From Thermomicrobiales bacterium (GTDB lineage Bacteria > Chloroflexota > Chloroflexia > Thermomicrobiales > UBA6265): DNA of 64,000 nucleotides. The notes below the pieces were generated by a model. That model was not told where the DNA came from, ran no database searches, and saw only the letters and a list, made by a program, of their open reading frames with translations. Made by a program: the position numbers and the translations under genes. Positions 17,133-61,168 of the stretch are shown here, piece by piece (within the stretch, counting starts at the first letter, position 1; each line of letters opens with the position of its first letter). Where the stretch lies: positions 1-64,000 of the forward strand of contig JAHBVL010000014.1 in NCBI GenBank assembly GCA_019637585.1, in the 5' to 3' direction.

Positions 17133-17198
17133 CGAGCAGCAGGCGTCTGGCAGCAGGCCGTTCGCCCGGAGATGCCCCGTCGCCGGGTTGGTCCGCAG

Positions 17199-17245
17199 GA
17201 CCTTCGCACCGTGAGCCCGGCCCGTTTACGGCCGGGCGGGTTTCG
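17199..17245. repeat. Solitary REP-like element
   Basis: GTGAGCCCGGCCCGTTTACG followed by GCCGGGCGGG forms a GC-rich hairpin. On the other strand it matches the hairpin repeated in every unit of the array at 58398-59790 (CCGTAAACGGGCCGGGCTCAC region). It is a single copy about 41 kb from the array and from the IS200-like/RAYT gene. Confidence 0.65.
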
Positions 17246-45381: not shown

Positions 45382-45405
45382 CCCTCTCCCGCGGTCGGGA
45401 GAGGG
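45382..45405. repeat. CCCTCTCCC hairpin, interspersed repeat type
   Basis: CCCTCTCCC (45382-45390) pairs with GGGAGAGGG (45397-45405). It is the common intergenic 'CCCTCTCCCG...CGGGAGAGGG' repeat; a variant lies inside the MITE at 58508-58698. It follows rpoD by about 30 bp and may serve as its transcript end, although no T-run follows. Confidence 0.55.
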
Positions 45406-45498
45406 CAGGGTGAGGGACATTCTCCACGTCTCATCATCCACGTCGGGCCTACGACATCTCCCGCCTCTCCGCCTCGGCTCAGGGTATCATCTCCTGTC

Positions 45499-56479: not shown

Positions 56480-58315
56480 CTAGAGCGACGCCTTGATCTG
56501 AGCGGCCAGAGACTGCGAGATGCCCTCGACGGCTGCAAGCTCAGATTCTGACGCATCCCGAATCGCTCTGACCGAGCCGAATTTCCGGATCAGCGCCCTG
56601 CGACGCTTTGGCCCCACACCCGGGATGGCGTCCAGGCTGGAGGAGAACGAGCTTTTCGTTCGTTTCTGGCGATGGAAGGTCACCGCGAAGCGGTGGGCCT
56701 CGTCCCGAACCCGCTGGACGAGAAAGAGCGCCTGGGAATCGCGAGGCAGAATCACGGGAAACGACTGTCCCGGCAGGAAGAGCTCCTCGTTCTCCTTGGC
56801 CAGCCCGACAATCGGAACGGTCATGCCTGCGGCCTGCAGCGCTTCCAGAGCGGCGTTGAGCTGCCCCTTCCCCCCGTCGATGATCACCAGGTCGGGAAGC
56901 TCGGCCCATTTCGATTCATCGTTTTCGTGTTCCTCGGCGGCGCGTCGAAACCGCCGCCCGACGACTTCTTTCATCATGGCGAAGTCGTTGCTGCCCTCGA
57001 CCGTCTTGACCGTGAATTTCCGGTACTCCTTCTTGGCCGGCCGGCCCTCGACGAAGACGACCATGCTGGCCACTGGGTTGGTGCCATGCAGATTGGAGAT
57101 GTCGAAGCACTCGATTCGTCGTGGCAAGCGGGGAAGATCGAGGCTTTCAGCTAGCTCCGTCAAGGCTGCTGTCATCTTCATCTCGTCGGAGAGGAACTTG
57201 ATGCGGTTTTGTTCCAGGTTGTCGACAGCGCTTTTCGACACCATCTGAATCAGGCCGCGCTTGTGGCCTCGCTGAGGCACGATCATCTCGACCCGGCCGT
57301 TCCGCCGTTCCTGCAGCCAGTCGTTGATCATCGGAAGATCCTGCTCCGGCGGTGTGTGCTGCAGATAAAGGATCGGTGGAACCATCGCGGCATCCGCGTA
57401 GAACTGCTCGATAAAACCACCGACGATCTCATTCGGGGTGTCCTCGATTCTGGCCTGCATGGGAAAGAACTCGGAGCCGAGCAGCTTGCCATTTCGCAGG
57501 AATGCCACCTGCACGCCGGCGTCGCCGCCATCCCCCTGAGCGACGGCGATGATGTCGGCATTCGTTCCTGAGGCGCTGACCACTTTCTGGCGTTCCAGCA
57601 CGTGCTTGACCGCTTCGATCCGGTCGCGAACCTCGGCGGCCCGTTCGAAGTTCCAGGCGTCGGCCGCTTCCCGCATTTCCGTTTCGAGCGGAATGAGAAT
57701 CTCGTCGCCGCGACCGCTGAGAAAGAGCTCCGCCGACTCGATAGCCCTCAGATACTCCTCATGGCTCGTCGCACCGATGCACGGAGCCAGGCACTGTTTT
57801 ATGTGGTAGTAGAGGCAAACCTGTTCATTGCCGGTGATCTTCTGTTCGCACTTCCGGTACGGGAATAGGCGATTGAGCAGGTTGAGCGCCTTGTACGCCG
57901 ACCCGGCCGATGTGTATGGCCCGAAGTAGCGGCCACCATCGTTGACGATGCGGCGAGTAGAGATGATGCGTGGCCATTCCTCACTGGTGATCTTGATGTA
58001 CGGGAACGTTTTGCTGTCTTTCAGCATCACGTTGTACTTCGGCAGGAGTTTCTTGATCAGCTCGTTTTCTAGGATGAGCGCCTCGGTGTTGGAATCGGTG
58101 CGGATCACCTCGAAATCGACGACGTGGCTGACCAGCTCACGCGTTTTCGGGTCCATGCCGCGCGTCGATTGGAAATAGGAGCGCACCCGATTGCGCAACG
58201 CCTGTGCCTTGCCGACATAGATCACCGTGCCCTCAGCATTCTTCAGCTGATAGATGCCCGGAGCGAGTGGGAGCGCGGCAAGACGGGATTTGAGATCGGG
58301 GGGGAAGGTCGTCAT
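56480..58315 (-). CDS. uvrC: Excinuclease ABC subunit C
   Basis: Dual-incision nuclease of nucleotide excision repair. It has 611 residues, full length. The GIY-YIG domain (GIYQLKNAEGTVIYVGKA, about 20-37) is followed by a UVR domain (AWNFERAAEVRDRIEAV), the RNase H-like 5' nuclease domain (RRIECFDISNLHGTNPVAS, DLVIIDGGKGQL) and a C-terminal tandem helix-hairpin-helix (IPGVGPKRRRALIRKFGS). A TATAAT box lies 9 nt before the ATG, with no Shine-Dalgarno, so the mRNA is likely leaderless. First gene of the run to rph. Confidence 0.95.
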   Translation of the reverse strand: MTTFPPDLKSRLAALPLAPGIYQLKNAEGTVIYVGKAQALRNRVRSYFQSTRGMDPKTRELVSHVVDFEVIRTDSNTEALILENELIKKLLPKYNVMLKDSKTFPYIKITSEEWPRIISTRRIVNDGGRYFGPYTSAGSAYKALNLLNRLFPYRKCEQKITGNEQVCLYYHIKQCLAPCIGATSHEEYLRAIESAELFLSGRGDEILIPLETEMREAADAWNFERAAEVRDRIEAVKHVLERQKVVSASGTNADIIAVAQGDGGDAGVQVAFLRNGKLLGSEFFPMQARIEDTPNEIVGGFIEQFYADAAMVPPILYLQHTPPEQDLPMINDWLQERRNGRVEMIVPQRGHKRGLIQMVSKSAVDNLEQNRIKFLSDEMKMTAALTELAESLDLPRLPRRIECFDISNLHGTNPVASMVVFVEGRPAKKEYRKFTVKTVEGSNDFAMMKEVVGRRFRRAAEEHENDESKWAELPDLVIIDGGKGQLNAALEALQAAGMTVPIVGLAKENEELFLPGQSFPVILPRDSQALFLVQRVRDEAHRFAVTFHRQKRTKSSFSSSLDAIPGVGPKRRRALIRKFGSVRAIRDASESELAAVEGISQSLAAQIKASL

Positions 58316-58397: not shown

Positions 58398-59150
58398 GGG
58401 TCTCGCGGAGGAGATGTCGAGCAATAGCGCGAGTCGTTCGGCCGCCCGCCCGGCCGTAAACGGGCCGGGCTCACAGTGCGATGGTCCTCTGGACCTCGGG
58501 ATGTGCCCCCTCACTTCCGGACACTTTGATTCTGGGGCTGTGGTTGCGGGCGCTTCGACCCCATTCCCTCATCCCCGGCCCTTCTCCCGACCGCGGGAGA
58601 AGGGTGCCGTCCCCCAAAAAACAAGCGGACCTTGGTGTCACCTTATCAACTTTCCCCGCAATTTCTGGGCCCAAACGCAAAGTGTCCGGAAGTGAGGGAT
58701 GTGCCCCGGAGGGGCATTGCACAGTGAGCGGTGCCGTTTCACGGCACTGCGGGTCTCGCGGAGGATCTGTCGATCGACAACACGACTCATTCGGACGCCC
58801 GCCCCGCCGTAGACGACCGGGCTCACAGTGCGATGGTCCTCCGGGCCGCAAGGGGCTGTGCCCCGGAGGGGCATCGCACCGTGAGCGGTGCCGTTTTACG
58901 GCACTGCGGGTCTCGCGGAGGAGCTGGCGAGCAATAGCGCGAGTCGTTCGGACGCCCGCCCGGCCGTAAACGGACCGGGCTCACAGAGCGATGGTCCTCC
59001 GGACCTCGGGATGTGCCCCGCAGGGGCATCGCACAGTGAGCGGTGCCGTTTCACGGCACTGCGGATCTCGCGGAGGAGCTGGCGATCGATAGCACGGGAC
59101 CACGCGGCCATCAACAGGCCCGTAGTGCGACGGTCCTCCAAACCCACGAC
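58398..59150. repeat. Tandem array of about 155-bp REP-like units
   Basis: The phrase (G)GGTCTCGCGGAGGA recurs at 58398, 58751, 58908 and (as GGATCTCGCGG) 59062. The spacings are 155 bp (after removing the inserted element and its 7-bp duplication), 157 and 154. Each complete unit holds three hairpins: GTGCCGTTTCACGGCAC (e.g. 58731-58747, 58888-58904, 59043-59059), a GCCCGGCCGTAAACGGGCCGGG-type stem, and TGCCCCGGAGGGGCA. No ORF in it is credible. The array leads directly into an IS200-like/RAYT gene, and a further unit follows that gene. The rest of the 58316-59192 gap holds no gene. Confidence 0.8.
58508..58698. mobile_element. 191-bp MITE with perfect 21-bp terminal inverted repeats
   Basis: Starts CCCTCACTTCCGGACACTTT (plus G) and ends with its exact inverse complement (58678-58698). 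It is flanked by the direct repeat ATGTGCC (58501-58507 and 58699-58705); the boundary is ambiguous by a few bases, so the duplication may be 7, 9 or 11 bp. Removing the element plus one 7-bp duplication restores the 155-bp period of the surrounding array, independent proof of insertion. It has no coding capacity; the interior contains a CCCTTCTCCCG/CGGGAGAAGGG hairpin. The transposase that moves it is not in the window. Confidence 0.85.
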
Positions 59151-59192
59151 TGTATGGGAAACTCCATTGCACTCGAACCGTTGGGAGGACAC

Positions 59193-59627
59193 ATGACTTG
59201 GTGGCGGCTGCACTACCACCTGATCTGGACAACTCGAGATCGATTGCCAGTCATTGATGAAGCTCGGTCCGAACTGCTGATGCGAGTGCTGCCAGGGCTC
59301 GCACGTCAAGACAGGTCGTTGATTCATGGCATCGGTTTGATGCCCGAGCATGTGCATGTCGCCATCTCTATCCCGCCCGCCGTCGCGATCGCCAAGGTTG
59401 TCAACCGGCTCAAGGGGTCGAGCAGTCATCTGATGTTCGACGAAGAGCGAGATACGGGCAACGACACCTGGCCGGGATGGGCCGAGGGATACGGCGTCCT
59501 GTCATTTCGCGAGAACGAGCTCAAGTCGGTCGTTCACTACGTCACGCACCAGCCAGAACATCACGCACACGACCGCCTGAGCGAGATGCTCGAGAACTGG
59601 GGTGGGAACGATACCCAGGAGCGTTGA
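59193..59627 (+). CDS. IS200-like Y1 transposase, probable REP-associated tyrosine transposase (RAYT)
   Basis: 144 residues of the Y1_Tnp family, which cuts single-stranded DNA through a phosphotyrosine. The N-terminus LHYHLIWTTRDRLPVI, the HUH motif HVHVAIS (His53, His55), WAEGYGVLSF, and the catalytic helix VVHYVTHQPEHH (Tyr116, Gln120) are all present, so the enzyme looks intact. GGGAGG lies 5 nt before the ATG. It has no tnpB partner. It is embedded in a REP-like array with hairpin units on both sides, the arrangement of RAYT genes that mobilise REP sequences, although IS200-type transposases also stand alone. Confidence 0.85.
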   Translation: MTWWRLHYHLIWTTRDRLPVIDEARSELLMRVLPGLARQDRSLIHGIGLMPEHVHVAISIPPAVAIAKVVNRLKGSSSHLMFDEERDTGNDTWPGWAEGYGVLSFRENELKSVVHYVTHQPEHHAHDRLSEMLENWGGNDTQER

Positions 59628-59636
59628 CGATTTGCC

Positions 59637-59790
59637 CCGGAGGGGCATTGCACTGTGAGCATTGCCGTTCTACGGCAATGCGGGCCTAGCGGAGACGATC
59701 GAACAACCGAGCGGGTCGCTCGGACGCCCGCCCGGCCGTAAACGGGCCGGGCTCACGGTGCCGTTTCACGGCACCGCGGGGCTCCTCGCG
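59637..59790. repeat. REP-like unit downstream of the transposase
   Basis: Begins with the GCCCCGGAGGGGCATTGCAC hairpin block, then a diverged ATTGCCGTTCTACGGCAAT hairpin, GCGGGCCTAGCGGAGA, the GCCCGGCCGTAAACGGGCCG stem and GGTGCCGTTTCACGGCACC. It is the same building block as the array upstream of the transposase, so the gene sits between repeat units. The following 126 bp to the next gene show nothing further that I can support. Confidence 0.75.
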
Positions 59791-59916
59791 ACAAACGTGG
59801 CCATATCCTAGTAATTAAGTCGGAATTGCGATAGGCTCTGCATCGGCGGAACGATCTTCGCCGTTTCGCAGTGATTTCGCCGCGGTTTGGCGGCGTATGT
59901 TCTGACAGGAGCGCTC

Positions 59917-60933
59917 ATGCACTCGCATCTTTCTCGACGTCGTCTTCTGGCCGGAAGCTCAGCTCTTGCCATGAGCTCGGTGCTGACTCGCCTCCAGGTT
60001 GCTTCCGCACAAGAGTCGACGCCTGGTGCTGGATTTCCGTTGACGATCACGCATGCCCTGGGAGAAACGGTGATCGAGGCGCCGCCGGAACGAATCGTGA
60101 CCCTCAGCTGGATCAATCAGGATATCGTCATCGCCCTGGGCAAGATCCCCGTTGGGGTGCCGCTGGTCACCTGGGGAGCGGATGAAAGCGGACTGCATCC
60201 GTGGACGCACGCTGCGCTCGGCGACGCCGAGCTTCCAGTCCTGCTGGAAACGGACCTCGAGATTCCGTTCGAGGCGATCGTGGAACTCGATCCCGACGTG
60301 ATCCTGGCGGTCTATTCCGGCATCACGGCCGATGAGTATCAGATTCTGTCCGGCATCGCCCCAACCGTCGCCTATCCCGAAGCGCCATTCGCCACGTCCT
60401 GGGAAGACGCCACGACGATCATCGGCGATGTCCTGGGTCTGCCGGCCGAAGCCGCTGCCCTGATCGATGAGACCCATGCTACGCTGGCGAATGCGTCGGT
60501 CGACCATCCGCAGATCGAAGGCAAGACCTTCGTCTATGGCAATGTCAGCACGGAGTCGTTCTTCATCTACACCGCCACCGACATCCGGGTCCAGCTCCTG
60601 GCGTCGATGGGGATGGTCCCGAGTCAGTACGTTCTCGATCTGTCCGAGCAGGCAGGTCCGGATGCGTTCTACGTCGAAGTCAGCCTGGAAGAGGCGGACA
60701 AGATCGACGGCGATATCGTTGTGTTCTGGTTTGGCAGTCAGGAAGAAGCAGACGCCGCGGCCGCCATGCCGATGGTGCAGCTGATTCCGGCCTTCCAGAA
60801 CGGCACCTATGTGGCGATCGTCGGGCAGCCGGAGGTCATGGCCAGCTCAGCGCCGTCGCCGCTGTCGATCCCCTTCATCATCGACACCTACGTGCCTCTG
60901 CTGGCCGCCGCCGCGGACAACGTCACGGCATAG
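59917..60933 (+). CDS. Periplasmic-binding protein of an iron-siderophore/cobalamin-type ABC importer
   Basis: 338 residues. Tat-like signal (LSRRRLLAGSSALAMSSV) then a class III binding protein of the FhuD/FepB/BtuF type (PPERIVTLSWINQDIVIALGKIPVGVP, FEAIVELDPDVILAVYSGITADEYQIL). The single long helix connecting two lobes fits the family. Ligand likely ferric siderophore, heme or cobalamin; no permease or ATPase adjoins. ATG 59917 has AGGAG 6 nt upstream. It is transcribed from beside the REP/transposase locus and ends in a hairpin-rich convergent region. Confidence 0.85.
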   Translation: MHSHLSRRRLLAGSSALAMSSVLTRLQVASAQESTPGAGFPLTITHALGETVIEAPPERIVTLSWINQDIVIALGKIPVGVPLVTWGADESGLHPWTHAALGDAELPVLLETDLEIPFEAIVELDPDVILAVYSGITADEYQILSGIAPTVAYPEAPFATSWEDATTIIGDVLGLPAEAAALIDETHATLANASVDHPQIEGKTFVYGNVSTESFFIYTATDIRVQLLASMGMVPSQYVLDLSEQAGPDAFYVEVSLEEADKIDGDIVVFWFGSQEEADAAAAMPMVQLIPAFQNGTYVAIVGQPEVMASSAPSPLSIPFIIDTYVPLLAAAADNVTA

Positions 60934-61007: not shown

Positions 61008-61062
61008 CGTGAGCGCGGCAATTGATTGCCGCGCTCACGCCCAGAAGTCCACTCAAGTGGAC
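61008..61062. terminator. Bidirectional hairpin cluster between convergent genes
   Basis: CGTGAGCGCGGCAAT (61008-61022) is a perfect inverse complement of 61025-61039. A second hairpin, GTCCACT/AGTGGAC (61047-61053, 61056-61062), follows 7 bp later. A third imperfect one (CCCGGC...GCCGGG) lies near 61110. They sit between the convergent binding-protein and permease genes. No T-runs are present, so termination may rely on Rho or on the paired structures. Confidence 0.55.
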
Positions 61063-61168
61063 TGATCGAGCGAGACAGTCCATTTCCAATGCACTTCGGT
61101 GATTCAGCCCGGCCACTTTCAGTGCCGGGCGGATCTGGACACGCCCTCGGCCATCTCCAGGCAAACTC

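Follow-up and report, generated by a model that had tools for sequence, protein, structure and literature searches.

A two-hairpin REPIN population in a Thermomicrobiales genome and its probable processor, an IS200-type transposase of TnpA-Y1 subclass 1.2

The transposase gene tnpA of a Thermomicrobiales bacterium lies within an array of inverted two-hairpin repeats (58442–59775, period 155–157 bp) in the window, by which we mean the whole stretch of 64,000 nucleotides that was analysed. Gene and repeats probably form a REPtron-like system with an enzyme of the IS200 type, in which the two-hairpin repeat is processed by its cognate TnpA-Y1 protein of subclass 1.2. The repeats have a covarying architecture, are paired inwards in a fixed manner, are dispersed in about 100 copies, lie between genes with a bias to 3' ends and are nearly absent from relatives. 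The same two-hairpin layout was found at homologous genes of other phyla, and gene and repeat co-occur statistically in cyanobacteria. We infer that the window protein disperses the repeats, and likewise its binding, its cleavage and the strand on which it acts.

A covariance model of the half-unit (R1) was used for genome-wide search and gave the bit scores in the following list of features.

58442..58498, minus strand: REPIN copy 1, A half (GGTCC-type inner hairpin, GCCCGG-type outer hairpin); R1 75.4 bits
58510..58696, no strand: MITE-like insert within copy 1, foreign to the system; 29-nt inverted termini, 11-bp direct repeat GGATGTGCCCC on both sides
58700..58756, plus strand: REPIN copy 1, C half (GCCCC-type inner hairpin); R1 68.4 bits
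58795..58850, minus strand: REPIN copy 2, A half; R1 57.8 bits
58857..58913, plus strand: REPIN copy 2, C half; R1 72.9 bits
58952..59008, minus strand: REPIN copy 3, A half; R1 76.2 bits
59012..59068, plus strand: REPIN copy 3, C half; R1 68.6 bits
59100..59144, minus strand: degenerate A half directly upstream of tnpA; local alignment score 40, with 4 of 2000 shuffles as high
59193..59627, plus strand: tnpA, single-domain HUH/Tyr (Y1) transposase of 144 aa, subclass 1.2 type (EHVH ... YVTHQPEHH); PF01797, NF033573, AF2, Foldseek
59631..59687, plus strand: C half directly downstream of tnpA; R1 69.7 bits
59724..59775, minus strand: A half fused to a C-type outer hairpin; R1 51.4 bits and sequence
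17187..17243, plus strand: dispersed A half with a degenerate C half; R1 77.7 bits

The sequence-only reading had described four units of about 155 bp, with three hairpins each, upstream of an intact HUH/Tyr transposase. The gene is indeed intact (PF01797, 81.6 bits) and the period was correct. The upstream part of the array proved to consist of three units and a degenerate half-unit (59100–59144). Each unit is made up of two halves in inverted orientation, with two hairpins per half, and thus has four hairpins. The 187-bp insert, which had been overlooked, interrupts the first unit. The centre of this insert holds a different palindrome (CCCTCACCCCCGGCCCCTCTCCCG type) that also occurs at several other loci, including 45382–45417 of the window. 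Because tnpA is placed between an A half and a C half (59631–59687), the gene occupies the position of the REPIN linker, and a REPIN can be read as the tnpA element minus the gene. The fused half at the downstream end of the array apparently arose by a deletion between common GTGAGC/GCTCAC words, as judged from its sequence. A search of Rfam gave no match within the window.

Alignment of the halves defined the repeat unit. Read outwards, a half has first a 5-bp inner hairpin, which is GGTCC/GGACC in halves of type A and GCCCC/GGGGC in those of type C. The linker WTCGCACYGTGA follows, and then a larger outer hairpin that reads GCCCGGYCCGTTTACGGCCGGGC with a bulged pyrimidine in A and about GCGGCGCCGTTTACGGCGCCGC in C. 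The linker measures 11–12 nt (exactly 12 in 103 of 105 halves). The foot GTGA (GTGA/TCAC) is nearly invariant, being present in 98 of 105 halves. The GTAG-type tetranucleotide, which the sequence-only reading had proposed to look for beside the stems, was found in none of the 105 halves, and GTAG or GTGG in two. An A and a C half, placed head to head about 10 nt apart, make up a REPIN of ≈ 117 bp. The stems differ between the two types with pairing kept: both sides of a pair had changed in 247 cells, as compared with 107 in shuffles. Base-pair covariation was 0.394 versus 0.123 in shuffles, a contrast that comes mostly from the comparison of A with C type; none of 500 shuffles was as high, and every slid version was far lower.

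Searching the genome with R1 yielded 106 half-units, spread over many contigs at 50 loci, with E-values per half down to 1e-12 and thus well beyond chance expectation. The hairpin at 17199–17245, previously taken for a solitary copy, belongs to a matching half-unit and is one of this population. All 29 isolated pairs face inwards, usually with 3–6 nt between the model ends, and every one combines an A half with a C half (17 in one orientation and 12 in the other; no A–A or C–C pair). Gene calls were made with a simple codon-usage method, so the following counts are approximate: 49 of the 50 loci are intergenic, the only overlap with a called gene being the tnpA array, and the 37 loci with both neighbours called comprise 26 convergent, 10 tandem and 1 divergent gaps, compared with 9, 31 and 8, respectively, among 48 gene pairs of the window. 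This preference for gaps after genes may reflect tolerance instead of targeting.

In four closely related copies (L088, L096, L105 and L123) the similarity extends over as much as ≈ 233 bp and the flanks are unrelated; a longer unit thus seems to have been dispersed recently. Both copies of a duplicated region of the genome (L118/L119) seem to contain the repeat, so that no empty site was available there. The left end of the longer copies L105, L123, L106, L102 and L097 reads TAGCCCGGAT, perhaps at the TAG stop of the preceding gene; the longer copies may have been inserted at stop codons. The repeat was also counted in relatives without the gene, a check suggested by the sequence-only reading: compared with the 106 half-units here, each of 40 relatives from the same family and order had 0–1 weak R1 matches. 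The window tnpA was absent from all 40, and its closest homologue is 52% identical.

The gene tnpA is flanked by uvrC (56480–58315, complement) and a periplasmic-binding-protein gene (59887–60933). Its product passed the IS200 model (NF033573, 77 bits versus a cut-off of 55) and fell well below the cut-off of the RAYT model NF047646 (REP_Tyr_transpos; 34.1 bits versus 80). The structure predicted with AF2 (pLDDT 88.7) had ISDra2 TnpA as its best Foldseek match (9.5e-10), and both ISDra2 and IS608 TnpA were closer to it in fold than TnpA-REP 4er8 (2.2e-6). The stretch YVTHQPEHH corresponds to the Y---Q--HH motif of TnpA-Y1 subclass 1.2 (PMC6006769). The homologues examined carry Y---Q--[HR]H, and the catalytic HUH, Tyr and Gln are invariant in all aligned homologues. 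In the tree, the RAYT of E. coli and the three RAYTs of the genome itself formed one clade (99/96) and five IS200/IS605 references another (100/99), with the window protein outside both. Subclass 1.2 was not recovered as a single clade, yet such a clade is compatible with the data (p-AU 0.40). By sequence and fold, then, the window protein is a class-1 (IS200-like) enzyme and not a RAYT. Of the RAYT–REP system that had been proposed for this locus, the layout and behaviour hold (dispersed, inward-facing, intergenic and nearly absent from relatives), but the enzyme was misassigned. The Chloroflexota host that this reading had suspected gains indirect support from the relatives recovered.

Subclass 1.2 was described as a group of low-copy, IS200-like genes without IS properties, with members in Cyanobacteria and Bacteroidetes (Quentin et al. 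2018, PMC6006769). It belongs to class 1 and generally lacks the typical terminal IS200 structures (PMC6006769). The window protein shares with it the Y---Q--HH motif, low copy number, closeness to IS200 TnpA and non-IS character. The genes analysed here differ from the published description in that they are mostly flanked by a conserved two-hairpin unit, have dispersed copies of it and occur in Chloroflexota as well.

Using an alignment as query, we scanned 84,980 species genomes for homologues and obtained 80 loci, mostly from Cyanobacteria; with the single window protein as query, a scan of contigs gave no matches. A flanking inverted repeat was present at all 12 homologue loci first inspected in relatives, and folding revealed an outer hairpin, a linker and an inner hairpin in most of them. 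The same arrangement, with a linker of ∼ 10 nt, flanks most subclass 1.2 genes of Chloroflexota, Cyanobacteria and a small number of further lineages. In the mostly cyanobacterial homologues the outer stem is GCC...GGC, the linker T[AC]ATAGCnnA and the inner hairpin AGTC...GACT. A strict scan for double hairpins on both flanks was passed by only 14 of 54 and 32 of 77 loci. This simple scan was too strict and was replaced by a second covariance model (R2), built from 23 flank units (21 cyanobacterial, one from Herpetosiphonaceae and one from Marithrix). The 23 units have compensatory changes at 13 of 16 pairs and a covariation of 0.530 versus 0.153.

R2 gave 83 matches on 50 Chloroflexota tnpA loci, 81 of them within 600 bp of the gene; 31 of the 50 loci had a match near the gene and 16 on both sides. 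It also matched 58 of 61 further loci outside its training set, as compared with 3 matches in 199 kb of control sequence. The REPIN of the window itself is not detected by R2, so the link across phyla rests on the common layout and on the similar linker (GGCTCACAGTGCGA-AGG versus GGCTCATAGCTCA-AGT). R2 did match a further two-hairpin unit of the cyanobacterial type at 61013–61063 of the window (E = 7.5e-8), which lies between the binding-protein and permease genes and belongs to a different repeat family.

Ten genomes with the gene had 11–142 R2 copies among the matches listed. Within one cyanobacterial class (116 genomes), at least five R2 copies were found in 10 of 15 genomes with the gene versus 7 of 101 without it (Fisher P = 5e-7, with relatedness ignored). 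Five cyanobacterial genomes (G536, G566, G589, G594 and G606) have at least 20 R2 copies and no tnpA match at E ≤ 1e-15; the gene may have been lost there, a divergent gene may have been missed, or another driver may be at work.

Other explanations for the array have to be weighed. A genuine RAYT–REP system of the GTAG type in a Chloroflexota host would account for dispersed, intergenic inverted pairs with the gene inside the array, and the genome does contain three genuine RAYTs (L034, L035 and L036; NF047646 89–99 bits), each flanked by its own repeats. We nevertheless consider this very unlikely, given the low NF047646 score of the window protein, its place outside the RAYT clade, its fold nearer to ISDra2 and IS608 TnpA than to TnpA-REP, the lack of GTAG from all halves and the presence of two hairpins per half. 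It could also be that another Y1 enzyme drives the repeats and that tnpA merely landed in the array. The 3.9-Mb genome has six Y1 genes, three of class 1 (the window tnpA, C31 and C28) and three class-2 RAYTs, and arrays attract insertions, the MITE-like insert being an example. The three other Y1 genes that were tested (C31, C28 and C1:427k) are, however, flanked by quite different repeats, with 9, 21 and 43 matches genome-wide, respectively, and the remaining two RAYT genes, L034 and L036, also sit in repeats of their own. Homologues of the window enzyme elsewhere, on the other hand, are flanked by the same two-hairpin layout. The chance that another enzyme is responsible therefore appears slight.

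The strong bias towards gaps between convergent genes and the covarying hairpins would fit host RNA or DNA elements under selection (bidirectional terminators, mRNA-stabilising hairpins or gyrase sites), with an incidental or domesticated transposase. We give this little credence: the repeats are near-absent from relatives, the ≈ 233-bp subfamily has expanded recently into unrelated flanks, and in cyanobacteria repeat and gene occur together. Terminators in particular were rejected as an account of the array, in which no terminator-like site was found versus 1.0 expected. Least probable is that we are dealing with a normal IS200-type insertion sequence whose copies have decayed or suffered internal deletions (an IS with its MITEs), although the protein passes the IS200 model and a REPIN resembles two ends joined without the gene. 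The window system shares with IS200/IS605 elements such as IS608 and ISDra2 the fold, the catalytic residues and the hairpin-flanked ends. It differs in that tnpA is single-copy, its nearest paralogues being 45% and 37% identical, that no tnpB adjoins it and that multiple near-identical copies of its whole element were not seen. Furthermore, same-strand left and right subterminal hairpins as in IS608 and ISDra2 were not seen at tnpA, whose flanks are inverted copies of the two-hairpin unit.

IS608, ISDra2 and TnpA-REP transposases act on single-stranded DNA, recognise hairpins and cut at their foot with an HUH/Tyr centre. By analogy, the window TnpA should act on single-stranded hairpin DNA in a similar way. 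Most likely, it would recognise the folded half in single-stranded DNA, either on the lagging strand or in a transcription bubble, and the HUH/Tyr centre would cut beside the hairpin foot. The unit would occasionally be re-joined elsewhere, chiefly in gaps after genes, with the ≈ 117-bp REPIN serving as the non-autonomous unit. Two hairpins on a fixed linker suggest that one dimer may read both hairpins of a half or, alternatively, that one hairpin may be bound while the other positions the cut. Once dispersed, the repeats may also have acquired a role in the host.

We also lean towards a wider proposal, in which subclass 1.2 enzymes are a further REP-driving lineage. The members of this lineage in Cyanobacteria, Chloroflexota, Proteobacteria and other phyla would share a single substrate code, namely an outer and an inner hairpin joined by a linker of ∼ 10 nt that carries a conserved foot. 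Each gene would maintain a repeat population private to it, and several such independent populations, belonging to two enzyme classes, could coexist in one genome.

In kind, this is a REPIN system. With RAYT/TnpA-REP proteins and their REPINs (Nunvar 2010, PMC2817692; Bertels and Rainey 2011, PMC3116915) it has in common that the gene lies within its own repeat, that the inverted pairs are dispersed and intergenic, and that the repeats are lineage-specific, with one family per gene; it differs in its class-1 instead of class-2 enzyme, its two hairpins per half and its GTGA instead of GTAG foot. In TIRYTs (TIRtrons), too, inverted repeats flank a Y1 gene, and some genomes contain repeat families (Di Nocera 2013, PMC3733652). 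Some of these terminal repeats are double palindromic, so there is precedent for double hairpins in themselves. However, 20 of 26 TIRYTs are class-2 proteins of subclass 2.1 (PMC6006769) and the window protein belongs to class 1; the linker word is GTGA/TCAC instead of the TIRYT motif GGGGWSAS. TnpA-Y1 class 3 (Quentin 2018, PMC6006769) shares the REP-like high-copy structures and a class-1-like Y motif, but this motif is YV[VI]xEQ, the 5' foot is CnGA and the hosts are Planctomycetes and Acidobacteria. The combination of enzyme class and two-hairpin substrate thus differs from RAYT, TIRYT and class 3 as described in the open-access literature. The cyanobacterial two-hairpin repeats may have been noticed before.

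In 2018, no DNA partner was described for the HUH proteins of subclass 1.2. The covarying two-hairpin unit is now a candidate, which makes the substrate of the subclass directly testable and suggests what DNA this little-known transposase branch acts on. It further suggests that REP-like populations of repeats arose not only with class-2 RAYTs but also with an enzyme of class 1. R2 provides a search model for repeats that are present at tens to > 100 copies in several cyanobacteria. In the present genome, three Y1 genes of class 1 and three of class 2 occur together, and most of them lie in visibly different repeats. A search of plasmids gave two distant matches only. A gene of the subclass 1.2 type (L283, YILNQPEHH) was seen on a plasmid of Bernardetia (Bacteroidota); it is flanked by an inverted repeat of 76 nt whose hairpin has a different construction.
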